Of a stretch of 61,433 nucleotides of DNA, positions 46,476 to 61,433 are shown piece after piece (the first letter of the stretch is position 1; each line of letters opens with the position of its first letter). Source of the DNA: an uncultured Clostridia bacterium (GTDB taxonomy: Bacteria; Bacillota; Clostridia; Christensenellales; UBA1242); NCBI GenBank assembly GCA_948442695.1, contig CAOJSF010000008.1:1-61433 (forward strand), written 5' to 3'. Both the position numbers and the translations under genes were made by a program. The notes under the pieces were generated by a model. The model saw only the letters and a program-made list of their open reading frames with translations, ran no database searches and was not told where the DNA came from.

Positions 46476-46997
46476 TTAGCAACAACGATTTCTGCAACAG
46501 TTTCCTAGAATACAACCTGCGAGAAGGCAGAGTGAATTTCTGTTGCAACATTTATTGCAGTTGTGATTGCAGTTGCAAGGACGATTGCAGTTGTGGTTGC
46601 AGTTTCTGTCACAGTTTTTATGGCAATCATGACCTCTTTTTTGGTCAAAATCGAAATCTCTTCTTTCAAAGTTTTCCTCTCTTCCGCCTATTTCTGGTGG
46701 GTAGAGATTGAAGTCGTTGTCAAAGCCAAAATCTCTTTCTTCAAAGCCTCTGTTTTCAAATTCACGATATTCAAAGTTTCTTTCTTCATATTTCTTTTCA
46801 AATTCTCTGTTGTTCCAGCAGTTGCATGGACGATTGCAATCATTCCATCTGTCGCAGTTGTTACGGAAATCACAGTTGTGATGACATCTGCAATCATTGT
46901 TGCATTCACAATTTGGACGACAAGGATTGAAGCATGGATTTTGCCATACTTTGTTGTTGCAACCACAGTTGCAATTATTAAAATTATTAAATAACAT
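46476..46997 (-). CDS. Cys/Asn-rich low-complexity protein, possible coat or metal-binding protein
   Basis: A 173-residue protein with about 29 cysteines, in two Cys/Asn/His-rich blocks (about 9-60 and 124-173, words such as NCNRPCNC and CNHNCNKCC) on either side of a charged Phe/Glu/Arg block (NFEYREFENRGFEERDFGF). There is no signal peptide. The same duplicated RPCNC word in both blocks points to internal duplication. Compositions like this occur in spore-coat or metal-binding proteins, but homology cannot be claimed. TTAGGAGAAT precedes the ATG, supporting a real gene; opposite-strand frames are shadows. Confidence 0.75.
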   Translation of the reverse strand: MLFNNFNNCNCGCNNKVWQNPCFNPCRPNCECNNDCRCHHNCDFRNNCDRWNDCNRPCNCWNNREFEKKYEERNFEYREFENRGFEERDFGFDNDFNLYPPEIGGREENFERRDFDFDQKRGHDCHKNCDRNCNHNCNRPCNCNHNCNKCCNRNSLCLLAGCILGNCCRNRCC

Positions 46998-48350: not shown

Positions 48351-49172
48351 TTATTTTTTATATTTCTTTTCAAGTGGGCTTACTAAGAAATACATTCCAC
48401 TTGCAAGCAGGCAAAGGATGACGATACTAGCCATGACTATGTCAAGTTTTAAAAGTTGAGAGCCATAGTTGATTAAATAGCCCAGTCCCGCCTTACTTGA
48501 CAGATATTCGCCCATTATTGTGCCAACCCAACTCATGCCTACATTTATTTTTAGGGCGGTGGCAAATTCGGGTAATGCATTTGGAATTATTAATTTGAAT
48601 AATATTTGATATTTTTTTGCGTGCATTGATTTCATAAGCAATATTTTATCATTGTCACATGAAATGAAAGCGTTTAGCATTGAAATAGTTGTGATTATTA
48701 CACATATTAATATACACATTACAATTGTGGCACCAGTTCCTGAGCCAACCCAGAATATAATCATTGGGCCTAGTGCAATCTTTGGCAGTGAATTGAGGAT
48801 GATTAGATAGGGTTCAAGCACCTTTCTAAGTCGCTCGCTCCACCAAAGTATGATTGCGATAACAAAGCCGATGAATGTTGCAAGGACAAACCCGATAATT
48901 GTTTCATATAGTGATGTCCACATATGCAATAAAAGGTTGCCATTTTGAAAAAGGTCGACTATTGTTACGGCTATTCGAGAAGGGCTTGAAAAGAAGAATG
49001 GGTCTATCACTTCGGTTTGTGCAAGAAGTTCCCAAATTCCCAAAAATGCCAGAAGAACTGTAAATTGTAAAACAATTATCAGAATCTTGTTGTTTCGTAG
49101 GCTTTTTAGGTATTTTCGTCTTGCTTTTGAGTAGTTGACGATTTTTTTCTTCATTAGACTAGATTTCTCCAA
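48351..49172 (-). CDS. ABC transporter permease (NitT/TauT-SsuC type)
   Basis: A 273-residue permease with six predicted helices and the EAA-type cytoplasmic loop (SMHAKKYQILFKLIIPNALPEFATALK). The sequence pattern (LGPMIIFWVGSGTGATIVM, SWVGTIMGEYLSSKAGLGYL) matches nitrate/sulfonate/taurine and thiamine-precursor importers. Its start overlaps the ATPase gene by 19 bp. No substrate-binding protein gene is next to it, so the substrate is open; pyrimidine/thiamine precursors or sulfonates are the family options. Confidence 0.9.
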   Translation of the reverse strand: MEKSSLMKKKIVNYSKARRKYLKSLRNNKILIIVLQFTVLLAFLGIWELLAQTEVIDPFFFSSPSRIAVTIVDLFQNGNLLLHMWTSLYETIIGFVLATFIGFVIAIILWWSERLRKVLEPYLIILNSLPKIALGPMIIFWVGSGTGATIVMCILICVIITTISMLNAFISCDNDKILLMKSMHAKKYQILFKLIIPNALPEFATALKINVGMSWVGTIMGEYLSSKAGLGYLINYGSQLLKLDIVMASIVILCLLASGMYFLVSPLEKKYKK

Positions 49173-49909
49173 ATCATTTCAAAATAGTTGCCAAAATCTT
49201 TATCCTCGCGTTTTTTTAGAGGCGTCTCTTGTGGAAAAGACAGTTCAAGTTCGGTTTTCACCTCCGCTGGTCTTTTTGTCAAGATTATTATTTTATCAGA
49301 CATACTGAGGGCTTCTGAAATGTCGTGAGTGACAAGCAAAGCAGTCTTTTTTTCTGATTTTATAATTTCATATACATCATCGCATACTTTTAGTCTTGTT
49401 TGGAAGTCGAGTGCTGAGAATGGCTCATCAAGAAGTAGAAGAGCAGGTTCAAGCACCAAAGTCCTAATTAAAGCAACACGCTGACGCATACCACCACTGA
49501 GTTGGCGAGGCTTTTTGTTTTTAAAGTTGTAAAGATCATATTTCTTTAATAAGTCTTCTGCCAAAGCAAGTTTTTTCTCATCTTTTTTCATCTTTTTGAT
49601 TTCTAAACCCAGAATTATATTTTGCCAAATTGACCGCCATTCAAAAAGATGGTCTCTTTGAAACATATATCCGATTCTTTCATCGTTTTGCTCAACAGGT
49701 TTGTTGTCTAAAAGGATTTTTCCACTTGATGGTGTCAAAAGACCTGCGGTAAGCGAAAGAATTGTCGTTTTACCACATCCACTAGGACCAACAAGAGAAG
49801 AAAAAGATTCTTTTTCAACAGTGAAGTTTACGCCATTTAAAGCACAAACTTCGCTTTCTTTTGTTTGATAGAAGTATTTAACATTATTAAATTCAAGTAA
49901 TTTTTCCAT
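49154..49909 (-). CDS. ABC transporter ATP-binding protein (NitT/TauT type)
   Basis: The 251-residue ATPase that powers the adjacent permease. Walker A GPSGCGKTT, Q-loop MFQRDHLFEWRS, signature LSGGMRQRVALIR, Walker B LLLLDEPFSALD and switch His in LVTHDISEA are all intact. GAGG lies 8 nt before the ATG. Together with the permease it forms a two-gene operon ending near the 37-bp repeats. Confidence 0.93.
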   Translation of the reverse strand: MEKLLEFNNVKYFYQTKESEVCALNGVNFTVEKESFSSLVGPSGCGKTTILSLTAGLLTPSSGKILLDNKPVEQNDERIGYMFQRDHLFEWRSIWQNIILGLEIKKMKKDEKKLALAEDLLKKYDLYNFKNKKPRQLSGGMRQRVALIRTLVLEPALLLLDEPFSALDFQTRLKVCDDVYEIIKSEKKTALLVTHDISEALSMSDKIIILTKRPAEVKTELELSFPQETPLKKREDKDFGNYFEMIWRNLV

Positions 49910-50310
49910 TCGTATGACCTCTACATTATCAGTTTAGCAATCTGTGATATGATTGTTACAAATATTTTAAAATTTGTTTGAAATTATTTTTTTAAAAAAT
50001 CTTTGTTTAATAATATTATAATAATTTAATTATTTATATAATAAATTCATATATTTTTATCTTTTTCAATGATTTTTTATTTAAATCTTATTTTTTTTAG
50101 TATTTTTAATAATAAAATTTTATTTTTTATGATTTTATTTTAATTAATTTGATTTTTTATTTGAATTTTGATTAATTTATATAATTTATTTGGCAATTTT
50201 AATATTTTTCAATTTTTTGTGCATTTTTCTTAAATTTTTATTGATTTTTATTGATTTTTTAATAATTTTCAGATTTTTTTCAATTTTTTTAAAATTTTTG
50301 TCAGTCAACA
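49910..50310. other. Gene-free, almost pure A/T stretch upstream of the capsid cassette
   Basis: About 400 bp of A/T-dominated DNA without ORF, RNA or attachment-site signature that I can recognise. It marks a clean boundary between host genes and the phage-derived cassette. Confidence 0.4.
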
Positions 50311-50340
50311 TTGAAAATGGCTAAACATGGCTTTTATAAT
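50311..50340 (+). promoter_or_regulatory. Promoter of the capsid cassette
   Basis: TTGAAA (50311-50316), 18 bp, consensus TATAAT (50335-50340). It is a vegetative host-type promoter with a leader of about 14 nt. Confidence 0.75.
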
Positions 50341-50360
50341 ATGGGCAATTAGCTAATGAG

Positions 50361-50663
50361 ATGGGAGGAGGCGTGGAAGAACAAGACAAGATAAAAAAGG
50401 CCCTTATGAAGAAAGCGCTGGGATATAACGCTGATGAAGTGATTGAAGAATATGTCATTGACGAGGAAGGAGAGGCGAGACTTTCAAAGAAGAAGGTCAC
50501 AAAAAAACATTTCAGTCCTGACATAACTGCCGTTAAGGTTTTGCTTGAGAGATATTACAAGACTTATGAAGATGAGGTTTTGGCAATGTCGGATGAGATG
50601 CTTCTTTCTGAAAAAGAAAAACTTGAAAATCAGTTGAAGGAGGTAAAAAATGGAATTAAATGA
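50361..50663 (+). CDS. First protein of phage cassette, possible small-terminase-position protein
   Basis: A 100-residue charged protein: AAE-rich start, KKALGYNADEVIEEYVIDEE, the KKKVTKKHFSPDITAVKVLL element and a C-terminal coiled coil. The same position in P22-like modules is taken by the small terminase subunit, and the VTKKH..PDI..VK..L pattern is one I associate with phage proteins near terminases, but no firm homology can be claimed. Start is uncertain: ATG 50361 or GTG 50373, the latter preceded by GGAGG. Confidence 0.65.
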   Translation: MGGGVEEQDKIKKALMKKALGYNADEVIEEYVIDEEGEARLSKKKVTKKHFSPDITAVKVLLERYYKTYEDEVLAMSDEMLLSEKEKLENQLKEVKNGIK

Positions 50664-50874
50664 ATGTAAACATTTGACTAAGTGCGACTTTTATGGTTGC
50701 AACAATTTGGCTAAGTATAGTTTTTCAACTAAAGGACTTTTACGAAGGAATCTATGCTTTTGCGAAGATTGTCTTAAGGGGATGTATCAGGCGGTGGCAA
50801 AATTGCAGACGCCTAAGGGAATCAACAGCCCTTTCAAATTAAATAAAAGGTTGGGTAAAAAAGATGATAAGTGA
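50650..50874 (+). CDS. Small Cys-rich protein of the phage cassette
   Basis: A 74-residue protein with cysteines arranged as CKHLTKCDFYGC and CFCEDC, suggesting a treble-clef or zinc-finger fold, followed by a basic tail (KLNKRLGKKDDK). GGAGG precedes the ATG inside the previous gene and its end overlaps the portal gene by 11 bp. It occupies the place where a large terminase gene would be expected. Function unknown. Confidence 0.7.
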   Translation: MELNECKHLTKCDFYGCNNLAKYSFSTKGLLRRNLCFCEDCLKGMYQAVAKLQTPKGINSPFKLNKRLGKKDDK

Positions 50875-52813
50875 AGAAGAAAAAATTGTAAAAGAGGTCA
50901 TTGATGACTTTAAAAATCGTGCTGAAATGAGAAGAAGTTTTGATATCATTTGGCAGATTAATATGAATTTCTTGATGGGAAATCAATTTTGTAATGTAGG
51001 ATATGGAAATCGTTTAGAAGAAGTTGATAGACAATTCTTCTGGCAGGAGAGGGAGGTTTTTAATCATATTGCTCCTATTTTTGATATTCGTTATGCAAAA
51101 CTTTCAAAAATCAAGCCAGATATCAATATTATTCCTGCAACAAATGATGAGCGTGATAAACTTACAGCAAAAGTGTCTAAGAAGATATATAAATCGGTGA
51201 AGAACAAACTTGATATTGATCGAAAAATTAATCAGGCTATTAAATGGTCTGAAGTTTGTGGGACTGCCTTTTATAAGATAGGTTGGAATCCAAATGCTGG
51301 ACAAATTGTCGCAACGGACGAAAAAGGACAACCTATTAGAAGTGGCGAAATTGAGTTCTCTGCGGTTAGTCCTTTTGAGATTTATCCAGATTCATCAGTT
51401 TGTGAAAGTATTGAAGAATGTCAAAGCATAATTCATGCAAAAGCGTTCTCTACAAAACAAATTGAAAATATGTATGGCGTGAAAGTTGAAGGCGAAAAAA
51501 TCAATACATATGCTCTTGACAATGTGAGTTTTGGTGTTGGAGGGCTAGGCTTTAATGGAACTGTGCCTAAGATGATTGAAAATGTCAAGGAGGATAGTGC
51601 GGTTGTAATTGAAAGATATTGTCGTCCTAGTTCTGCCTATCCAAATGGCAGGCTGACAATCGTTGCGGGAAACAGGCTTGTGTTTGACGGAGAACTTCCA
51701 TATATGTTTGATGATGAAGAAAGAGATCTTCCTTTTATCAGACAAACAAGCATTGCTGAACCAGGTTGCTTTTGGGGGACAAGTGTAATTGAAAGACTGA
51801 TTCCAGTTCAAAGAGCATACAATGCTGTCAAAAACCGCAAGCATGAATTTATCAATAGGCTTTCTCTCGGTGTTTTAAGTGTCGAAGATGGTTCGGTTGA
51901 CCTCGACAACCTTGAAGATGAGGGGCTTTGTCCTGGCAAAGTGCTTGTTTATAGGCAGGGTGCAAGTGAACCTAAATATTTGCAGGGTGAGTCACTTCCT
52001 AGCGGGATTGAAAAAGAGGAGGCAAATCTCCTTGACGAATTTAAATCTATAAGTGGTGTAAGTGATCTTTTAAGTGCTGGTTCTCTTTCCTCTCAAATGA
52101 GCGGTGTTGCCATCGAACTTATGATTTCTCAAGATGAGACAAGACTTAATGCTTCTATTGATAGTATAAATTCTTCGGTCAAGCATATCGCAAAGAAAAT
52201 TTTGCAACTATATAAACAGTTTGCTCAATTGCCTAGACTTGCAAGAGTAATCGGAGAAAATGGTCAAATTGAAATGTTCTATTTTTCATCAAGTGATATT
52301 TCAAGTGATGATATTGAAATTGAGAGTCAGTCAGAGGGGTTAAACACTTTATCGCAAAGGAGAGAGATGATTATGTCGCTTCTAAAAAATGGAGTGCTTA
52401 GTGATGAAAACAATCAACTGACAAATAGAATGAAATGCAAAATCCTTGATATGCTGGGCATGGGAATTTGGGAAAATGCTCAAGATGTCAATGAACTTCA
52501 TATCAGAAAGGCAAGCAATGAAAATCTTAATCTTCTTAAAGGAGAGTCTGTAAAGGTAAGCGAAATTGACAATCATGAACTTCATATAAACGAACATATT
52601 GCCTTTATGCTGGGTGAAGACTATGAAAAGGTTTGCAAAAAGAATGATAAAGTTGAGCAGTTGTTTTTGGAGCATATAAATAAGCATAAAAATGAGAAAA
52701 TGCAAAATGATATGCAAAAAAATGACAATCAAAAAATTGTTGAGTCAAACGATATTAAAAATATCAATCATAATGACAATCAAAAAAATCATAATCAAAA
52801 CAATAATATTTAA
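50864..52813 (+). CDS. Phage portal protein (P22-like)
   Basis: Portal proteins form the dodecameric ring at the capsid vertex through which DNA passes. The 649 residues start with a helical region, then FLMGNQFCNVGYGNR, FNHIAPIFDIRYAKLSKIKP, and WSEVCGTAFYKIGWNP (family hallmarks). A beta-rich region follows, then SGVSDLLSAG and MSGVAIELMISQDETRL, then the long helical crown and a Gln/Asn/Lys-rich disordered tail. The size and motif order suit P22-type portals. The start overlaps the previous gene. Confidence 0.85.
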   Translation: MISEEEKIVKEVIDDFKNRAEMRRSFDIIWQINMNFLMGNQFCNVGYGNRLEEVDRQFFWQEREVFNHIAPIFDIRYAKLSKIKPDINIIPATNDERDKLTAKVSKKIYKSVKNKLDIDRKINQAIKWSEVCGTAFYKIGWNPNAGQIVATDEKGQPIRSGEIEFSAVSPFEIYPDSSVCESIEECQSIIHAKAFSTKQIENMYGVKVEGEKINTYALDNVSFGVGGLGFNGTVPKMIENVKEDSAVVIERYCRPSSAYPNGRLTIVAGNRLVFDGELPYMFDDEERDLPFIRQTSIAEPGCFWGTSVIERLIPVQRAYNAVKNRKHEFINRLSLGVLSVEDGSVDLDNLEDEGLCPGKVLVYRQGASEPKYLQGESLPSGIEKEEANLLDEFKSISGVSDLLSAGSLSSQMSGVAIELMISQDETRLNASIDSINSSVKHIAKKILQLYKQFAQLPRLARVIGENGQIEMFYFSSSDISSDDIEIESQSEGLNTLSQRREMIMSLLKNGVLSDENNQLTNRMKCKILDMLGMGIWENAQDVNELHIRKASNENLNLLKGESVKVSEIDNHELHINEHIAFMLGEDYEKVCKKNDKVEQLFLEHINKHKNEKMQNDMQKNDNQKIVESNDIKNINHNDNQKNHNQNNNI

Positions 52814-52899
52814 GAAATATATAGATAAGAAAATGATAGGCGAGAAAATAAAAGACAAGAAAAAGATAATTAAAAATATTAAAATGGAGGAATGGAATT

Positions 52900-53751
52900 A
52901 TGGAAGAAAAAAGAGAACAACCGATTATAATGCCAGCAACAACTTTAAACCTAGTAGATGAAAACAGTGCTATGAGCGAAATCGGCTCTCTGCATGATTT
53001 AGGGAAATTTAAAACCGTTCAGGCTTTGAAAGACGCGTATGATAGTCTGGAGGTGGAATTTACTAAAAAGTGCCAAAAACTTAGTCAGTTACAAAAAGAC
53101 AAAACTGAAAACTTATCAAAGAAGGAAGAAAACAATGAGGTAGAAAAAGAGGTTTCTGCAAAAGAGGTTGACGAACAAAAGTTGACAGAAAAAATTGATA
53201 ATTTTGTTAAAATCGACAAAATTTTTCATAAAAATGATGAAAAAACACATGAAGATGCAGAAATTATCTCAAATAACGACGAGAATGCTTCTGAAAGAGA
53301 AAATGATTTGCAAGAAGAAAATAATGAAAATGATGCAAAAGATGAGCAAATTGCTCTTTCTAAAACAGGTGAAAATTCTTTCGATGATGAAGAAATGAAA
53401 AAGTTCCTTGAATGTAATTTTGATGCAAGTTGTTATGCTGATGAAATCAAAGAAAGATTCAAAAGTGTAGACATTAAAAATTCTGACCCATTTGAGGTTG
53501 CATGGGCTCAGGTCCTTCTTAGTCATATCAAAGAAGGGGACAAAGCAAGCGACCCATTAATCAATCAATATGTTTTATCTGATAAAAATGTAAGAAAAAA
53601 GGTAATCGAGGATTATCTTGATGGCTTACGCAACTCAAAACCACCACTTGTAATTTCTTCACAGAGCGGAGAAAGGGTGTCAGGTGTCATGCCTGACAGC
53701 CCTAAAACGCTTGCTGATGCGAAGAGGCTTGTGGACAAGATGTTTAGTTAA
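52900..53751 (+). CDS. Probable capsid scaffolding protein
   Basis: A 283-residue, highly charged, mostly helical protein with a disordered Glu/Lys/Asn-rich middle (about 70-160). The C-terminus (GVMPDSPKTLADAKRLVDKM) is helical and basic, like scaffold proteins that bind coat protein. No specific homology is visible; the call rests on composition and position between portal and major capsid genes. GGAGG lies 9 nt before ATG. Confidence 0.7.
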   Translation: MEEKREQPIIMPATTLNLVDENSAMSEIGSLHDLGKFKTVQALKDAYDSLEVEFTKKCQKLSQLQKDKTENLSKKEENNEVEKEVSAKEVDEQKLTEKIDNFVKIDKIFHKNDEKTHEDAEIISNNDENASERENDLQEENNENDAKDEQIALSKTGENSFDDEEMKKFLECNFDASCYADEIKERFKSVDIKNSDPFEVAWAQVLLSHIKEGDKASDPLINQYVLSDKNVRKKVIEDYLDGLRNSKPPLVISSQSGERVSGVMPDSPKTLADAKRLVDKMFS

Positions 53752-53937
53752 AAAAATAAAAAAAGAGCAATAAAACATATTTTTTTCAAGAAAATTAATA
53801 AAATTTTATCAAATTTGGGGTATTTTTTATTAAAATCTAATAATTTTTTTTAAATTATCAAATTTGGATTTATCCTTTTAATAGAAAATATACTTTAAAA
53901 TTTGCTTATTAAATTATTAATTTTTATCAATTAAATT
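53752..53937. other. AT-rich gap before the major capsid gene
   Basis: No ORF. A possible second promoter, TTGGAT (53864) and TATACT (53889-53894) with a 19-bp spacer, would give separate transcription of the major capsid gene. TTGGAGG is the ribosome site at the end. Confidence 0.4.
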
Positions 53938-55170
53938 TTGGAGGGAAAAATGGTAACATTACAAACTGCTGAAAGTGCTTTAAAAAATGTGTATCTTGGC
54001 GTGGTTGCAAATCAACTCAATGTCAATGCAAATCCACTTTTGGCTAAAATCAAAAAATCAAGTAAAGATGTTTGGGGCAAAGAAGTCCGCAAACTTGCAC
54101 CTTTTGGCATCAATGGTGGCATAGGTGCTGGCAGTGAAACTGACGCACTTCCTTCTTCTTCATCGAATGGATATGTTCAGTTTATTGCAGAACTTAAAAA
54201 CCTTTATGGTAAAATTGAAATTTCTGACAAGGCAGTGAGAGCATCTGCAAACAATGTTGGTGCTTTTGTAAATCTTCTTTCTGATGAAATGGAAGGACTT
54301 GTTAAGGCAAGTGCATTCAACTTAGGAAGAATGCTTTATGGTGATGGCTCTGGTAAACTTGCAGAAGTTGACAGTGTTTCAGACAAAACTGTAAAATGCA
54401 ACAAGGTAAACAATCTTATAGAAGGTATGCTTGTTGACATTTATTCATCAACTGGAAAGAAAAGCACAAATCCTTTGAAAATCACATATGTTGACAGAGT
54501 AAACAAGACTTTTACATACATCTGTGCATCTGAAATCACTATTGCAAGAGGTGATATCATTTATGTTCAAGGCTCAAAAGATTTTGAAATCAGTGGACTG
54601 GGCAAATTATTTGATACAACTGCAACTTCTATTTATGGAGTAAGCAAATCAGAACATCCATGGCTTAATCCTTATCAAACTTCTTCTGAAACTGAAATTT
54701 CTGACTTATTGATTCAACAGGCTATTGACTTCCTTGACATGAACACTGACAGCAAAATCAACTTTATTTCTTGCTCAAGCACGGTAAGAAGAGCATATCA
54801 AGAATATCTCGGTGCTTACAGAAGAAATATTGACATTGCAGAACTTGAAGGCGGATATAAAACTATATCTCACAATGGTATTCCAGTTGTTGCTGACAGA
54901 TTTGTTGACGATGATACAATGTATTTATTGAATACAAATGATTTCACTCTTCATGAACTTTGCGACTGGCAATGGATTGAAGGTGAGGATGGAAGAATCT
55001 TAAAACAAAATCAAGGATTCCCAACCTACAGTGCAACTCTTGTAAAATATGCAGAACTCATCTGTGACAAGCCATGTGGACAGGCTAAAATTTCTAAAAT
55101 TAAGTCAAGTGTGACAAATCCTTTTGCTCCAAATGTGACAGTAAACAATACTGCTTCAACTGAGGCTTAA
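53938..55170 (+). CDS. Phage major capsid protein
   Basis: A 410-residue protein with the pattern of HK97-fold coat proteins in gut phages. An N-terminal helix is followed by GIGAGSETDALPSSSSNGYV and LYGKIEISDKAVRASANN (the E-loop/P-domain region), GLVKASAFNLGRMLYGDGSG, a central beta insertion (about 140-210), then the A-domain with FISCSSTVRRAYQEY and HNGIPVVADRF. The C-terminus ends in TVNNTASTEA. TTGGAGG precedes the start. An intrinsic terminator follows 20 bp after the stop. Confidence 0.88.
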   Translation: MEGKMVTLQTAESALKNVYLGVVANQLNVNANPLLAKIKKSSKDVWGKEVRKLAPFGINGGIGAGSETDALPSSSSNGYVQFIAELKNLYGKIEISDKAVRASANNVGAFVNLLSDEMEGLVKASAFNLGRMLYGDGSGKLAEVDSVSDKTVKCNKVNNLIEGMLVDIYSSTGKKSTNPLKITYVDRVNKTFTYICASEITIARGDIIYVQGSKDFEISGLGKLFDTTATSIYGVSKSEHPWLNPYQTSSETEISDLLIQQAIDFLDMNTDSKINFISCSSTVRRAYQEYLGAYRRNIDIAELEGGYKTISHNGIPVVADRFVDDDTMYLLNTNDFTLHELCDWQWIEGEDGRILKQNQGFPTYSATLVKYAELICDKPCGQAKISKIKSSVTNPFAPNVTVNNTASTEA

Positions 55171-55190
55171 GAGATAATTAAGGAAAATCA

Positions 55191-55230
55191 GGCAAAAAAC
55201 AGTAAAAAATCAAGGTTTTTTGCCTTTTTT
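55191..55230 (+). terminator. Terminator directly after the major capsid gene
   Basis: GGCAAAAAAC (55191-55200) pairs with GTTTTTTGCC (55215-55224), then six Ts. It would end most capsid transcripts before the connector genes. Confidence 0.85.
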
Positions 55231-55270
55231 CTTTAAATTTTTTAATATTATCAATTTTATGAGGTGTTTT

Positions 55271-55588
55271 ATGAAAAATTTAATCAAGGTAGAAAATGAT
55301 GTTTTTTACATTGCAAGGCGACTAAAAAATGTTGACCCTAGTTATGAAGTCTATTTCAATTTAACGACAAAATGTTTTGAAGTTCATTCAACAGAGCAAG
55401 AAAAAAACAGTTATTGTTTTAAAGTGCCTTACAACATTCTTGATGAAAGAACGATTGATTATGCTTTGAAAACTCGCTCTGAAAATCGTGATAAACTTCT
55501 CATGGAGATTGAACTAAACAACAAAATCATAGAGGAGAGAAATATTAAAAATCAAGTAAATTTATTAAAGGAGGCGTTATGTTTGTAA
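55271..55588 (+). CDS. Small phage-cassette protein of unknown function
   Basis: A 105-residue protein from ATG 55271 (GAGGTG at 55261-55266). The longer ORF starting at 55220 runs over the terminator and has no ribosome site. It opens MKNLIKVENDVFYIARRLKN, then DPSYEVYFNLTTKCFEVHST, a compact alpha/beta pattern, and ends in a charged helix. Many phages have a similar small gene after the coat gene. It overlaps the next gene by 10 bp, so it is translationally coupled. Confidence 0.75.
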   Translation: MKNLIKVENDVFYIARRLKNVDPSYEVYFNLTTKCFEVHSTEQEKNSYCFKVPYNILDERTIDYALKTRSENRDKLLMEIELNNKIIEERNIKNQVNLLKEALCL

Positions 55589-56130
55589 AAGATATTATTT
55601 TAAAGGCTTGTGACTTTATCGAAAATGATGAACTTGCGCAGGCTATCGAGCAAGATAGTGCTTTAGATGAAGAAAAACAAAACGCATTAGATAAACTTTT
55701 AAAATGTTTCAATCTTGTCAGGAATGAAATTGTCTGCGAGTATATGCCCATAGTAAATATGGAAAGGGTGATTTGTCATGACGGCAAGATAAATTTTAAT
55801 CAGTTTAAAAAGAAGGTTGTCGACATAATTTCAGTTAAGGATAACTTTGGAAACAATGTAAAATTTAAAATATTTGATGACTTTATGCTGGTTGAAGGAG
55901 GAGACGTCTTAGTATGTTATAATTCATCAACTGATGAACTTGATCTTGATGGCGAATTTTTTTCTACCATTTCAGATAGGGTTTATGCATATGGCGTTGT
56001 AAGAGAATATTATTTTATTCAAACTCTTTATGAAGATGCCAAAGTGTGGGATGAACGCTTTAAATCAAGTTTGCAAATTTTTGAACGTAAAAAAGGAGAT
56101 ACGGTTTTGCCTCGTAGGAGGTGGATCTGA
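55579..56130 (+). CDS. Probable head-completion/connector protein (gp4-like position)
   Basis: A 183-residue protein with an N-terminal helical half (IENDELAQAI, NALDKLLKCFNLVRNEI) and a beta-rich second half ending LPRRRWI. In P22-like modules the gene after coat is a head-tail connector of about this size and two-part structure; homology cannot be shown here. Coupled to both neighbours: its start lies inside the 105-aa gene and its stop overlaps the next start (TGATG). Confidence 0.65.
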   Translation: MFVKDIILKACDFIENDELAQAIEQDSALDEEKQNALDKLLKCFNLVRNEIVCEYMPIVNMERVICHDGKINFNQFKKKVVDIISVKDNFGNNVKFKIFDDFMLVEGGDVLVCYNSSTDELDLDGEFFSTISDRVYAYGVVREYYFIQTLYEDAKVWDERFKSSLQIFERKKGDTVLPRRRWI

Positions 56131-57650
56131 TGTTTTATAAAAGGACTTTATCGGGCAAAAAGAGTGACGAGAAAGAATTTGAATTTGATATGTTTGGCGA
56201 CAACCAAAACATGGAAGATGACCAAACTGTATTAAGAGTGGGTGAGCCTAGAAAGGTTTACAATTTTATTTCTGCTGACGGGACACTGAAGAATGGTTAT
56301 GGTTTTAAAAATATAGCAATGCCAACAAGTGAAACTGATCTTGACAATGAAACTGATATTTCACTTAGAGGAAATGAGGTTAAAAATATCTGGAAACTTA
56401 AATGGTATGACGCAGGAGCAGACCAAAACAAATATTATCTCTTCTATTTTAATGATGAAGGCAATGTTTGTTTTGACAATATATTTGGATTGAGGGTTAT
56501 GACGGGTTATAAAAAAACAGACTTTGTAAATACTCCATATGCCTGTTATTACCGCAAAAATTTGCAGGATGCAATTATGCTGTCAGGTGAGGCAAAGATT
56601 CAAGGTGATGAAAATGAAACTGGTAAAAAGTTGATGATTATTACTGGTGAACATACTTTTACAAGCGATACTGCACCAAAGATAATATCATGTTGCAGTC
56701 ATTATGGAAAACTCTTTGCAATCACTGCAAATGCTCGTGGCACCCTTGTTTATAAAGAAAATAGTGATGTGCTTGAATGGACGGATGAGAAAACGCAAAA
56801 TCTTGATTTTAGTGATAGTAGAGGTGACCTTAACAAGATAATCTCGTTTAATGATTATCTATATTTGTTTAGGGATTTTGGCATTACAAGAATTTCTGAA
56901 TATGGCAAAGATGGACTTTTTGAAATTTGCCATATTTATCAATCTGATAGTTATATTCATCCAAATACAATAGCAGAGACTGGCGACAATGTCTATTTTA
57001 TGGAAGGCAACAAACTTAAAGTTTTTAATGGCTCTTCAATTAAAACAGTTGACCTTGAAGTTTTTAGACTTTTGCAAGGATGTGACAACAGATTTGCTTA
57101 TGGAGAGTGTTTTGACGGAAAATATTATCTTGCTTGTCGTGGAAATTTTGATGATGACAGGAGTATAGGATGTGAAAATTTTGAGAGCGGATTTAAAAAT
57201 AATATTTTGTTGGTCCTTGATATTTTAAGTCAGCATATTGATATTATAAGAGGTGTTGACATAAACAAACTTCTTGCACTGACAAATAAATTCAAGTCAA
57301 AACTTGTTGCCTGCTTTTACGGTCAACATAAAGGACAGATAGGAGAACTTACCTTTGATGGAAAGGTGTTTGGCGAAGAAGAAAATGCCTTTTGGGAAAG
57401 TGGAAAAACCGATTTTGGTTATAGCGGTAAACTCAAGAGAATTAAATCCTTTTTAATCAAAAGTGAGGGGGATTGCAAAGTCACTTTTATAAGTGAACGA
57501 GGTGAGAAATCTTTTGCCGTCAAAGGAAGGAAAGATGTGCAAAAAATAAGAGCAAATGTTCTAGGTAATCAATTTGTTGTAAAGATTGAGACAAAGAATA
57601 ATCAAAAAGTTTATATAAGCAATTTTGTGCTGAAAGTGAGTTGTGGTTGA
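56130..57650 (+). CDS. Tail-stabilisation-like phage protein, beta-rich (gp10-like)
   Basis: A 506-residue beta-rich protein from ATG 56130 (AGGAGG 56116-56121; the GTG at 56121 lies in the ribosome site). Repeated strand-turn units (LYLFRDFGITRIS, VYFMEGNKLKVFNGSSI, YGECFDGKYYLACRG) suggest a propeller-type domain. That is how the P22 gp10 packaged-DNA stabilisation protein is built, and gp10 lies at this point of the P22 order. Direct homology is not certain. No signal peptide. Confidence 0.65.
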   Translation: MFYKRTLSGKKSDEKEFEFDMFGDNQNMEDDQTVLRVGEPRKVYNFISADGTLKNGYGFKNIAMPTSETDLDNETDISLRGNEVKNIWKLKWYDAGADQNKYYLFYFNDEGNVCFDNIFGLRVMTGYKKTDFVNTPYACYYRKNLQDAIMLSGEAKIQGDENETGKKLMIITGEHTFTSDTAPKIISCCSHYGKLFAITANARGTLVYKENSDVLEWTDEKTQNLDFSDSRGDLNKIISFNDYLYLFRDFGITRISEYGKDGLFEICHIYQSDSYIHPNTIAETGDNVYFMEGNKLKVFNGSSIKTVDLEVFRLLQGCDNRFAYGECFDGKYYLACRGNFDDDRSIGCENFESGFKNNILLVLDILSQHIDIIRGVDINKLLALTNKFKSKLVACFYGQHKGQIGELTFDGKVFGEEENAFWESGKTDFGYSGKLKRIKSFLIKSEGDCKVTFISERGEKSFAVKGRKDVQKIRANVLGNQFVVKIETKNNQKVYISNFVLKVSCG

Positions 57651-57757
57651 TGTTTGAAAAACTGAGAAATCATATTGATTTGATTAATAAAAGAGAATTT
57701 CTGGTCGAAGAATATCTCTTAAAAAAAATGCTTCAAAAAAGCAGGAGGAAAAAATAA
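57650..57757 (+). CDS. 35-residue small protein in the phage cassette
   Basis: ATG 57650 overlaps the TGA of the previous gene (TGATG) and the TAA at 57755-57757 is followed one base later by the next ATG. The reading frame (MFEKLRNHIDLINKREFLVE, then EYLLKKMLQ and a Lys/Arg tail) is an amphipathic basic helix. The AGGAGG that starts the next gene is inside its end. Tight coupling on both sides argues for real translation; function unknown. Confidence 0.6.
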   Translation: MFEKLRNHIDLINKREFLVEEYLLKKMLQKSRRKK

Positions 57758-57758
57758 T

Positions 57759-57986
57759 ATGGATTTCTGGTCTGAACTTGTAAAAACTGTGATTAGTAAT
57801 GGTATATTTGCCATGCTGTTTGTTTATTTGCTTTTCTATATTCTCAAAGATAGTCAAAAAAGAGAAGATGCCTATCGCAAGACGATTGACGAACTTGCCG
57901 AGCATCTTATTGTCATTGAAGATGTAAAAGAAGAGGTGGCAGAAATTAAAGACTATCTTGAAAGGAGGTCTGATGATGAAATATAA
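57759..57986 (+). CDS. BhlA/UviB-type holin-like protein
   Basis: A 75-residue protein with one N-terminal membrane segment (about 10-31, FWSELVKTVISNGIFAMLF), then a KDSQKREDAY motif and a charged coiled coil. This matches the BhlA/UviB family, implicated in membrane permeabilisation or bacteriocin release. AGGAGG is 8 nt upstream. It overlaps the next gene by about 11 bp. Confidence 0.85.
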   Translation: MDFWSELVKTVISNGIFAMLFVYLLFYILKDSQKREDAYRKTIDELAEHLIVIEDVKEEVAEIKDYLERRSDDEI

Positions 57987-58365
57987 ATCTTATGGTTTCT
58001 GGACAGCCCTGGCAGGAGCGGTGACTCTTTTTGCAGGTGCAATAGCGAAATGCTTTGGTCTTTCAATCAATGTCGCAATCATTGAAGATGTCATTATGAC
58101 TTTCGCTGGGATACTTGTTGTGCTGGGAATTGTGTGTATGCCCATTGAAAATGAAAAAAATCACGAAAAATCTGTCGGAAATGAAGAATCTAGTGAAATA
58201 ATTGATAATAAGTCAACTGATAATCTTGATGATCAGGCATTAGGTGAGATGAAAGAAAATGAAGAGTCTTTAGATAAATCAGCAGATAATTTTGCAGGTG
58301 AATTTAAAAATGATACTGCAGGTGTTTTAGCAGATTGTGAATCTGATAAAAATTGTGATTTATAA
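57976..58365 (+). CDS. Phage holin-like membrane protein with acidic tail
   Basis: From ATG 57976 (AGGAGG 57963-57968) the 129-residue protein has two membrane helices (about 5-25, 33-55: FWTALAGAVTLFAGAIAK and IMTFAGILVVLGIVCMP), as in small phage holins. A 75-residue acidic, Asn/Ser-rich tail follows, which is long for a holin. It is the last gene of the cassette; no endolysin follows. A lysis or secretion role is inferred from the holin fold. Confidence 0.75.
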   Translation: MKYKSYGFWTALAGAVTLFAGAIAKCFGLSINVAIIEDVIMTFAGILVVLGIVCMPIENEKNHEKSVGNEESSEIIDNKSTDNLDDQALGEMKENEESLDKSADNFAGEFKNDTAGVLADCESDKNCDL

Positions 58366-58542
58366 ATTGTGGATTTAAATCAATAGAATTGCAAAGACAC
58401 CATATCGAAAAATTGTTTAATTTATATAATTTTATCGAAAAATGTAGAAAAATAGGTAAAAAAACTGAAAAATATAGAAATATATCGAAACAAATAGAAT
58501 TGTGGCGATTAGATAGGCGAATTTGAAATGCTAATCAAAAGA

Positions 58543-58571
58543 ATGTCTCCATTTTTTGGAGGCATTTTTTT
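58543..58571 (+). terminator. Terminator of the phage-derived cassette
   Basis: TGTCTCC / GGAGGCA stem (one G-U), A/T loop and a T run, 180 bp after the last stop. Confidence 0.85.
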
Positions 58572-59077: not shown

Positions 59078-61197
59078 TTTAACAAATTTCGGCTTTTACA
59101 ATGTAATGTTTATTACTTGTATTTTTGTTTATTATGAGACAACTCGCAATAAATTTCGACTTTTTTAATAGGGTGATGGTTGTTTGTTTTGAGGCCATGC
59201 AAGACAAATTTCGACCTTTATAATAGTTTATGCCGTAAAAATAATTGTTTTCGGTTGATTTGAATTTACATGAGTCTCAACAAATTTCGACTTTAGTTAT
59301 GTACTGAGATTATAAAAATAATGAATGATTTTTGGTTGAGCAATGCAAATTACAAACAAACTACGACCTTTTTGTTGTGGTGGGAGGTTTGGTGAGTTTT
59401 GCATGATATGTAGAACCTCAACAAATTATAGATTGAAAGGTGGCTTGTTATTTTTGAATCAAACATAGAATCTTGATAATTGTAGCGTGAATGGGGCACA
59501 ACGACATAAAAATCAATAAATTTCGACTTTTGTTATGTATGATATTATAAAACTTATAGAAGATATTTATGCTATCTAGATGTGCATTTCAACAAATTTC
59601 GACTTTTCGGAGATGGTGTGATTTGGCGTGAATGTGCGTTTGATGAAAATGGCTGTGATGAAAAACTTGATAGAATTAAAGTGTAAGTAGTAAATTATAA
59701 GGAATAAATTGTAAGTCGTAAGTTGTGATGAATAAGTTGTGATGAATAAATTGTTATAAATAAATTATGATGAAAAATTTGGCAGAATCAATTATGAAGA
59801 ATAAATTGTGAGGAACAAAATGTGAGAAATAGATTGTGTTGGAAACAATTTATTTAAACAAAATTCGACATGTGATAATGCGGACAGTTCGGTAAGTTTG
59901 GCACAAATGATATAGCATTGAATGATAATAAAGTAGAATCTATGAGTTTGTTGCGGTTGATAAAAAAATGAGAATTTGACAAAGCATTGATTGAATAGGC
60001 AGTGGTAAACATGATGTGAATTTTTATATGTGACAAAACTTGATTTGAGGGTTGTGAATAAATTGATGAATTTTTGTAGATGACAAAAACTTGATTTTGG
60101 GTGGGTGGTAAAATATTATAAAGTGCGGGTGAAAAGTAGGCGGTTTTAAAAATGATGAAAAATACGTCAAAATTCGACATTGAATCCATGAAGAGAATGA
60201 TGAGTTTTTGAAATGTTGAAAATCAAGTGAGATAAAATTTTATAAGTTGAAAAAGAGGAAAGTTTGGAGGGGATTGTAAATGGCAAACAATCAGACAAAT
60301 TTCGACATAAAATGGATTGATGGCAAAGTGCGATTTTATTTATTAATTTTTGATTGAATTATAAAATTCAACAAAATTTGAATAGGTAAAATTTGTGTAA
60401 ATTTTGTTCAAAAAATTAAACAAACAAATAGAATGAGAAAATGTTTTTTTAAATACGACAAATTTCGACAAAAATACATGAGAGGCTAGTTTAGGTTTGA
60501 TGAGAAAATAAAATTTAAGAGGTTGGAGAGAGGAATGCAACTTAAAAATTTCAATAATATTCTATAAAATAAGAGCAAGTGAAATTTGTGCGGGTGAGAT
60601 GAAAGAAATAATAATAAAGAGGATATAGTGGGAGGAGTGGAATTTGCAAGATTTGGCAAAATGTGGGTAAGTGAAATTTGTGCGGTTTTGATGATAAAAT
60701 TAAAAAAGAAGATAGAATTATAAAATGTTGTTTTTGAAATACGACAAATTTCGACAGGGGATTTGTGAGTGAAATTTGTGCGGGTGAGATGAAAGAAATA
60801 ATAATAAAGAGGATATAGTGGGAGGAGTGGAATTTGCAAGATTTGGCAAAATGTGGGTAAGTGAAATTTGTGCGGTTTTGATGATAAAATTAAAAAAGAA
60901 GATAGAATTATAAAATGTTGTTTTTGAAATACGACAAATTTCGGCAAAGGGTGTGTGAGTGAAGTTTGTGTGGATGAGATGAAAGAAATAATTTTTATAA
61001 AATAGTATAAGTGAAAGTTGTACGCAAATTTCGATAAGATTCGACATAAAATTATAAAAATCGACAAAGAGTAGGTGGAAGAGATTTGTGATATAAAACA
61101 GGCGGAAAGAATGTGTGACAAATTTCGATTTGATTTAATAATTTGTGGCAGATTTCGACAAAATATAATTGAATAATGTTTATTTCGACATTGAAAA
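59078..61197 (+). repeat. Dispersed AAATTTCGAC motif array in gene-free DNA
   Basis: Exact AAATTTCGAC lies at 59152, 59207, 59282, 59518, 59594, 60297, 60460 and 60746, always on the plus strand and often preceded by AC. Near matches occur around 59082, 59865, 60169, 60936, 61023, 61117, 61149 and 61183. The intervening DNA is unrelated A/G-rich sequence. Minus-strand reading frames here are low-complexity and lack ribosome sites, so I annotate no gene. Confidence 0.85.
60578..60994 (+). repeat. Tandem 190-bp repeat, two full and one partial copy
   Basis: AGTGAAATTTGTGCGGGTGA begins at 60578 and 60768, and a diverged AGTGAAGTTTGTGTGGATGA at 60958. The two full units are nearly identical over most of their length. 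Each ends in TACGACAAATTTCGAC/GGC, so the motif array is partly amplified with the repeat. Confidence 0.92.
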
Positions 61198-61433
61198 TGT
61201 GCTTAAGAAAGGGAGGAAGAAGAGGGAGAAATATGAATTTAAAAAGGCTATAAAGTGGATGAAAGGGTGGTTTTGGGAGATAAATAGGGGTAAATTGAGA
61301 GATTTTTTGAAATTTTTGGTTTAAGGTATTGATTTGTGATTTAAAATATGTTATTCTATAAATGTAGTTTTAATAAGTCAAGAAATTTTTATATTGAATG
61401 ATTTTTAAATTAGAAATAAAAAAATTTCCACAT

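Follow-up and report, generated by a model that had tools for sequence, protein, structure and literature searches.

A capsid and tail cassette in an uncultured Christensenellales bacterium, probably one half of a split, vertically inherited gene transfer agent of podovirus type

Introduction

What kind of element is the compact run of phage-like genes at positions 50361-58365 of contig CAOJSF010000008.1, which belongs to an uncultured Clostridia bacterium of the order Christensenellales (assembly GCA_948442695.1)? The stretch analysed, hereafter the window, is this entire contig (C8; 61,433 bp), one of 29 in an assembly of 1.32 Mb and 96.9% completeness, and it stops at 61433 because the contig stops there. 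A preliminary description had read the run as a portal and capsid cassette without terminase, tail, endolysin or integrase, and had considered either a domesticated or satellite particle unable to package DNA on its own (resembling a gene transfer agent (GTA), a nanocompartment or a bacteriocin-like release unit) or a decayed prophage. GTAs are best studied in Alphaproteobacteria, and literature searches confined to open-licence PMC papers listed none that describes the present locus or a Christensenellales GTA operon.

The present analysis points to the cassette as the capsid and tail half of a vertically inherited, domesticated GTA of podovirus type, a reading to which a probability of about 0.85 is given. 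Judging from its genes, the set would be expected to produce particles and transfer DNA. Where individual genomes, contigs, loci or families have to be told apart, they are designated by the letters G, C, L and f, respectively, the window's own genome being G000.

Results

Packaging genes at two loci

From the small terminase (TerS) to a second holin gene, the cassette is a tight, co-oriented run on the plus strand in which all open reading frames (ORFs) are intact, and its GC content (31-34% across 50-58 kb) falls within the 28-40% of the window. The co-oriented portal, scaffold-like, capsid, connector-region and holin-like genes seen earlier were thus recovered with profile matches, together with their intact ORFs and chromosome-like AT-rich composition. 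The head genes comprise a P22-type portal of 649 aa (50864-52813; Pfam P22_portal, E 8e-23; phrog_156, 1e-39), a scaffold-like protein of 283 aa (52900-53751), whose function is assigned from position only, and a major capsid protein (MCP) of 406 aa from the ATG at 53950 (53950-55170), which scores 261 bits against a cut-off of 80 for NCBIfam capsid_maj_Podo (NF033394, 1.3e-77) and also matches phrog_14242 (2e-53). Profile scans gave no significant family match for the scaffold-like protein, kept in 34/36 genus genomes, or for the 105-aa connector-region protein g108 (55271-55588), kept in 35/36; the 36-genome set used for neighbours and gene presence leaves out G031, which has no MCP and no strong large terminase (TerL).

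The absence of terminase claimed for this locus did not hold. The first cassette gene (50361-50663) encodes a short, GTA-type TerS of 100 aa that matches only a C-terminal part of phrog_309 (positions 197-243 of 319, E 6.5e-5), and a search of the own genome with the TerL family phrog_2 gave one match, a strong one, at ~182.4-183.9 kb of contig C1. This TerL is an intact 505-aa ORF (Pfam Terminase_6N, 6e-13; Terminase_6C, 1e-4). Across 40 TerLs of more than 400 aa, conservation is at least 97% in the motifs GGNRxGKxE and DEEPP and at the acidic residues D317, D378, D460 and D464, taken here as Walker A, Walker B and nuclease residues. The 74-aa Cys-rich protein (Cys74; 50650-50874) that had been placed in the TerL position is instead a separate gene between TerS and portal, recognised by conservation and a six-frame HMM search in 34/36 genus genomes including the own, the exceptions being G025, where a contig ends, and G029, which has lost the cassette. 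Inability to package DNA is likewise not supported, as the genome has TerS and a motif-conserved TerL, the latter beside a gene bearing the cassette's promoter.

No helix-turn-helix (HTH) Pfam match was found in any of 40 TerS orthologues, retained from 158 matches after length (80-135 aa) and redundancy filters, or in eight longer forms (137-173 aa) scanned separately, shorter ones being left out. Thirty-five of the 40, from across the order, matched phrog_309, and one gave a marginal match to a PHROG named transcriptional regulator (E 0.0095). As a positive control, the TerS of L281, an apparent prophage in another order with a related MCP, carries HTH_23. Loss of the N-terminal HTH is proposed as the defining trait of GTA-type TerS in the available part of a previous report (PMC6854486), and the TerS examined here shows this lack of an N-terminal DNA-binding domain; packaging would be random because, as proposed there, GTA-type TerS has lost its DNA-binding domain.

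In several families the genes form one contiguous set in the order sig-sh3-TerL-TerS-Cys74-portal-scaffold-MCP-g108-adaptor-nozzle-(DUF7934)-BhlA-holin, with members missing from some clusters, and the order sig-sh3-TerL-TerS-(Cys74)-portal recurs in other families and in sister genera (L054, L290, L295, L357, L358). L055, with TerS-TerL-portal, is unlike most contiguous relatives seen, which have TerL-TerS-portal. In the window's genus the set is broken into locus A, the cassette of the window, and locus B (sig-sh3-TerL), which lies on contig C1 beside lexA. TerL stretches were obtained for 33 genus genomes (none for G001, G009, G012 and G031); in all 33 TerL neighbours the gene of a divergent SH3-like membrane protein (sh3), preceded in 32 by sig, the single miss being a contig edge. 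The sig product weakly matches the phage activator family phrog_248 (E 0.003).

An intermediate arrangement occurs in G003, G019, G024 and G034, where a surface-protein gene, a brnQ-like gene and the two ABC genes, in that order, separate TerL from the capsid cassette, the loci lying ~5-8 kb apart. On a single contig, they are ~32-144 kb apart in G004, G006, G016, G021, G026, G030 and G033, and in the own genome the distance is ~110 kb or more (C1 = 290,513 bp; assuming no contig overlap). The loci of the own genome are therefore too far apart for co-packaging, which is not so in families with contiguous genes.

Two neighbouring genes were also observed. A large surface protein (L039:11120-13402) lies beside TerL in most genus genomes; its ratio of non-synonymous to synonymous substitutions (dN/dS) is ~0.4 in two near-saturated pairs, which may be paralogues, and 0.11 in the closest pair. 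In part of the genus (L211, L214, L220, L238 and others), comEC follows the holin gene directly or a few kb on, and it may also follow the window's cassette, because comEC of the own genome lies on another contig (G000:C18:5743-6516); this adjacency was not used as evidence of function.

Predicted tail proteins and the end of the cassette

The two genes after g108, con183 (183 aa; 55579-56130) and g509 (506 aa; 56130-57650), were assigned from AlphaFold2 (AF2) models and Foldseek searches. The model of con183 (pLDDT 87) matched tail and neck proteins (Pa223, 2.5e-6; KHP30, 2.6e-6; SU10, 8e-5), and that of g509 (pLDDT 89.9, pTM 0.90) matched the Pa223 tail (1.5e-19), VP1 (2e-13) and the P22 tail (3.6e-11). 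As modelled, they fold like the head-to-tail adaptor and the nozzle, or hub, of a short podoviral tail, so that a short tail would be expected on the particle; on predicted structure, the cassette is not the tailless one first described. No integrase or endolysin family was found among the ten cassette ORFs scanned, and no integrase, excision or replication genes were seen among these ten together with six locus-B proteins.

After the nozzle come a 35-aa ORF (57650-57757), a BhlA-type holin-like membrane protein of 75 aa (57759-57986; PF10960, 1.1e-16) and a phi-LC3-like holin of up to 135 aa (57958-58365; phrog_297, 2.9e-7; PF04531, E 1.4e-4, just above cut-off). Relatives of the 35-aa ORF were found in three genomes and in 5/80 named loci, and others may be missed because ORF calling stopped at 35 aa.

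DUF7934 (PF25588), a Pfam family of unknown function exemplified by L053:4027-5028, lies between nozzle and BhlA in G038, G043, G045 and G054 and exceeds the cut-off in 8/61 genomes; in G037 and G060 it is present with no MCP match. It is a candidate tail, ejection or entry protein. The own genome, searched beyond the cassette, gave no match; in G026 a 94-aa ORF at the expected place matches a purpose-built DUF7934 profile, and one (L092) of 38 named loci bearing the genus-type ABC gene contains the family.

Inheritance and selection

The host genes marking the site, an ABC-transporter permease and ATPase named by reading the sequences, lie on the minus strand at 48351-49909. The conserved synteny sought as a check on domestication was found: the ATPase gene adjoins the cassette in 33/36 genus genomes, the exceptions being contig edges (G010, G025) and the cassette loss of G029. 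Core genes are full length throughout the 36 genomes, save at the ends of contigs or fetched stretches and in that one loss of the whole cassette. In distant families (L053, L056), common housekeeping neighbours surround the cluster, namely rplT, a SpoU-type methylase, YebC and proA, as named by reading the sequences.

Protein distances follow those of rpoB closely for portal (Mantel r 0.91), nozzle (0.92) and TerL (0.85; 30-32 genomes); with 24-32 genus genomes used per gene, the values for these three and for MCP each exceeded all 999 permutations. Trees were drawn from 35 genomes with portal, TerL longer than 400 aa and rpoB longer than 900 aa. FastTree splits held in common with rpoB (34-35 genomes) amounted to 22/32 for portal, 19/32 for TerL, 18/31 for nozzle and 17/31 for MCP, compared with a shuffle mean of 0.26 for portal and 0.2-0.3 across genes. 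In a test of conflict among supported splits, which covered portal and TerL, none of 18 portal splits disagreed with rpoB.

Purifying selection was assessed in six genome pairs. In the least saturated (G035-G036), dN/dS was 0.024 for portal and 0.053 for MCP, the two genes for which this check had been proposed, and 0.038 for TerL, 0.041 for TerS and 0.018 for rpoB; portal, TerL, TerS, MCP and nozzle together fall between 0.02 and 0.06, adaptor and Cys74 stand at 0.07, and BhlA, scaffold, sig and g108 range from 0.12 to 0.20. Vertical inheritance at a constant address, gene trees congruent with the host and purifying selection are thus found together, with some exchange suggested by MCP and a few TerL splits.

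A promoter common to both loci

Conservation across both loci defines a promoter at 50300-50340 (plus strand), composed of the hexamer GTCAGT, five nucleotides, the -35 element TTGAAA, 18 nt and the -10 element TATAAT, the last two (50311-50340) agreeing with the consensus at 11 of 12 positions. The same motif precedes sig on contig C1 (L039:7930). A host promoter had been proposed here from the sequence of the window; conservation makes 50311-50340 stand out, whereas a scan alone does not (51 sites vs 37 expected). The terminator proposed for the other end is weak, with six sites in a scan vs 3.5 expected, and the palindrome at 58547-58561 is listed on the minus strand only.

The strict pattern [TG][GT]CAGT-N5-TTG-N19..22-TA[TA]AAT gave 22 matches in 1.149 Mb of genus loci vs 0.15 in mononucleotide shuffles, and 18 of the 22 begin 11-72 bp upstream of the terS or sig start as called. 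A looser pattern matched the whole own genome four times (control, 0): terS, sig and a phage-like remnant are each preceded by one match, and the fourth lies at a contig end. The upstream hexamer varies by lineage (GTCAGT, GGCAGT, GGCACT, GGCATA), and within a genome the hexamers of the two unlinked loci tend to vary together: 88/96 bases agree vs a permuted mean of 74, with 10/16 pairs identical. Of the 36 genomes, the 16 in which neither promoter has more than three mismatches were scored for this concordance, the rest being poorer or missing at one locus. A common DNA-binding factor acting on both promoters would be the simplest cause of these sequence patterns.

A search for further regulon members with the promoter pattern was not fruitful, the other matches preceding unrelated genes (e.g. 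dnaA in G022), the phage-like remnant or a contig end. The remnant (G000:C1:84323, L369; also L376) follows the same pattern and is conserved in G010; its TerS-like and ParB-like ORFs were named by reading the sequences. Control by LexA was considered and is not supported: the Gram-positive SOS box (at most one mismatch) occurs less often than chance predicts, both in the window and in L039, and no match precedes terS, sig or terL, though lexA closely adjoins sig.

Distribution in the genus, the order and beyond

MCP was found in 35/37 genus genomes (own included), singly except in G018, and in 9/24 other sampled genomes of the order, one of the nine being a weak fragment. A wider draw recovered it in 244/395 genomes of the order and 69/134 genera, with one copy each as listed, except two in G063, G066, G112, G196 and G285; in family f1, 41/43 genomes carried it as listed. 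In the class at large it was present in 20/293 genomes, six of them outside the order.

Similarity to known phages is low. A search of 50,697 phage records gave 14 MCP matches, the best at 28% identity; the best-covered portal matches are ~20-24% identical, and TerL matches 966 records, all below 60%, the best among the matches listed being 30%. In IMG/VR, 58 loci with related MCPs were found (L139-L196), of which 53 hold at least three genes of the set and 16 hold sh3 with terL. Many of them look like chromosomal fragments catalogued as viruses, because they hold the same gene set.

Some variants of the set were also observed. Two tandem MCP genes occur within a cluster of the usual type at L283:8035-10370 (G112), and likewise in L177 and L179. 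Outside the order, in family f65, a scaffold-MCP-(g108)-adaptor-nozzle run lies beside serC-serA (names assigned by reading the sequences) in 3/3 species of one genus (L277, L278, L279), neither portal nor TerL turning up within the fetched stretches; in L280, MCP and scaffold alone were seen. L277-L280 may be additional split loci of GTA-like type, in other orders of Clostridia.

Other features of the window

A megablast search of the cassette against plasmid records found no match, and an Rfam scan returned nothing but the tRNA. From 59080 to the contig end at 61433 the window is non-coding and repeat-rich. A motif like ACAAATTTCGAC recurs there about a dozen times, and six of the genome's 11 exact 12-mers lie in this part; within it are also an array with a 14-bp period near 59665-59855 and, at 60578-60957, a tandem duplication of 190 bp. 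On the minus strand, 46476-46997 holds a repetitive Asn/Cys-rich ORF of 173 aa with unusual composition.

Discussion

Phage-derived head, packaging and tail genes are present and intact in this genome, divided between two loci, and vertical inheritance, conserved addresses, near-universal single copy and purifying selection strongly support the domesticated, GTA-like particle that was among the first suggestions; the idea of a nanocompartment is not needed. As a working mechanism, a regulator of the common promoter would fire both loci together in some cells, and portal, scaffold and capsid would assemble a small head. The HTH-less TerS would be unable to recognise a pac site, TerL would start on host DNA without sequence specificity and fill heads with it (headful packaging), and adaptor and nozzle would close the head with a stub tail. 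Holins would then release the particles, with endolysin supplied from elsewhere. It is proposed that the particle could not propagate itself where its genes lie ~32 kb to more than 100 kb apart. Recipients may take up the DNA through ComEC and DprA, found in 19/21 and 20/21 genomes tested, respectively, which is permissive only, such genes being common anyway.

Several observations weigh against this reading. MCP tracks rpoB less well than the other genes (Mantel r 0.59; 17/31 splits) and 3/13 supported TerL splits conflict with rpoB; because of these disagreements, some exchange probably occurred. The dN/dS values of sig and g108 are 0.15-0.20 even in the best pair, and silent sites have reached partial or full saturation in the other five pairs. 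The proteins scanned from the two loci include no recognised endolysin, fibre or receptor-binding protein, and DUF7934, kept by relatives, has no match above cut-off in the genus, where weak sub-threshold matches occur in 3/37 genomes. No strong TerL was recovered in G001, G009, G012 and G031, and portal and MCP are both absent in G029, G062 (100% complete), G031 and G292, G029 retaining its TerL locus; because some genomes do without portal and MCP, the cassette is dispensable. G018 has a second, divergent MCP, in two fragments, with a TerL on a short contig (G018:C41, L252), perhaps a related prophage. As to the promoter, the loose pattern also occurs elsewhere, GTA sites making up two of four matches in G000, two of seven in G010, two of three in G022 and one of three in G004, where a backward control gave two; the concordance between loci is partly shared ancestry, and relatedness inflates the agreement.

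The alternatives differ in how they account for such gaps. A PBSX-like killer or lysis-released particle, which would package DNA without delivering it and be kept for strain competition, is unlikely, though not negligibly so: it would suit two retained holin genes in a set where no receptor-binding protein was recognised, and the available part of the FpGTA report leaves the same possibility open for that system (PMC12946183). The retention of TerL, HTH-less TerS, adaptor and nozzle speaks against it, as does the frequency of ComEC and DprA, with the proviso already given. Under the satellite or helper-dependent capsid supplier once proposed, packaging genes would come from another element; beyond the earlier idea that they were missing nothing specific favours it, and a genome with its own TerL and TerS, conserved addresses and no integrase family in the cassette makes it scarcely credible.

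The remaining two alternatives invoke a phage, dead or alive. An old integrated prophage drifting after the loss of its integrase and lysis genes would explain why no integrase family is found in the ten cassette ORFs and why four genomes have no portal, but it is contradicted by full-length core genes in the 36 genus genomes (edges and one cassette loss apart), by dN/dS of 0.02-0.06 for portal, MCP, TerL and nozzle in G035-G036, and by two separated loci kept together under a common promoter; decay is therefore very improbable. An active temperate P22-like phage with its remaining genes elsewhere, spreading horizontally, draws on the homologous MCP in the apparent prophage of another order (L281), the 58 IMG/VR loci, and the MCP and few TerL splits that disagree with rpoB. 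Such a prophage should carry an integrase and vary in position, whereas the address is conserved, with the same chromosomal neighbour in 33/36 genus genomes and edges or loss in the rest, and rpoB congruence agrees with this; the closest phage MCP is 28% identical, and of the 58 viral loci, 53 have at least three genes in common with the set and 16 have sh3 with terL as on chromosomes. An active phage is accordingly quite improbable.

If the cassette is half of a domesticated GTA, a wider proposition can be put forward that we hold to be slightly better than an even bet: that it belongs to a GTA lineage spanning the order and independent of those in Alphaproteobacteria, with motor and capsid at distant sites coupled only by a co-evolving promoter, and that this lineage is the source of Christensenellaceae GTA-like packaged DNA in human stool. 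Christensenellaceae account for 3/25 GTA-like packaging events (genera HMG11616 and QANA01), no operon being named for them in the available part of the report (PMC12946183). If true, capsid-borne gene exchange would be a standing trait of a large clade (244/395 genomes of an uncultured gut order), and candidate genes could be named for packaging events that stool viromes have already revealed. The contiguous, intermediate and separated arrangements would record how a phage loses self-transmission while its parts stay selected together. The common promoter would offer a direct handle on the regulator, making bipartite GTA regulation testable in these lineages. A further suggestion is that short contigs with capsid genes, catalogued as viral, can come from bacterial chromosomes.

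Among known systems, P22-like podoviruses have portal, MCP, adaptor and nozzle of the same kinds, and Arthrobacter phages Jasmine and Adat and Cellulosimicrobium phage DS1 resemble the set in MCP (26-28% identity) and portal (~22-24%). These phages are records of 45-47 kb, whereas here the genes are split, and no integrase or replication family was seen among the proteins scanned from either locus. By description, RcGTA differs in being siphovirus-like, with its TerL in the main structural cluster, and PBSX of Bacillus subtilis in being a single prophage-like locus with a long contractile tail. PBSX is presented in the available text of one report as a defective GTA-like element that packages DNA without injecting it (PMC12946183). 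RcGTA and its relatives, so far as the accessible parts of two sources describe them, share with the present set a TerS without N-terminal HTH, vertical inheritance and a tendency to occupy several loci, up to hundreds of kb apart (PMC6854486, PMC11841831).

The closest parallel is FpGTA of Faecalibacterium, reported in January 2026 as a podovirus-like gut GTA and, in its own words, the first of its kind (PMC12946183); the comparison that follows draws on the available part of that report. FpGTA is encoded by two operons, which one closed genome places ~125 kb apart, and forms ~40-nm particles containing ~9-kb DNA. It is known from proteomics, microscopy and packaged DNA, whereas the set described here is known from genes alone and is compared by description. 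The FpGTA order is TerS-TerL-portal-scaffold-MCP, TerL directly following TerS in the main operon; in the present set TerL lies in the second locus or before TerS, the contiguous relatives being mostly TerL-TerS-portal, L055 excepted. Both systems are of podovirus type and occur in gut Clostridia, both have a TerS without obvious DNA-binding domain, TerL, portal, scaffold and MCP, and both have their genes in two operons far apart; the set described here, in contrast to FpGTA, spans an order.

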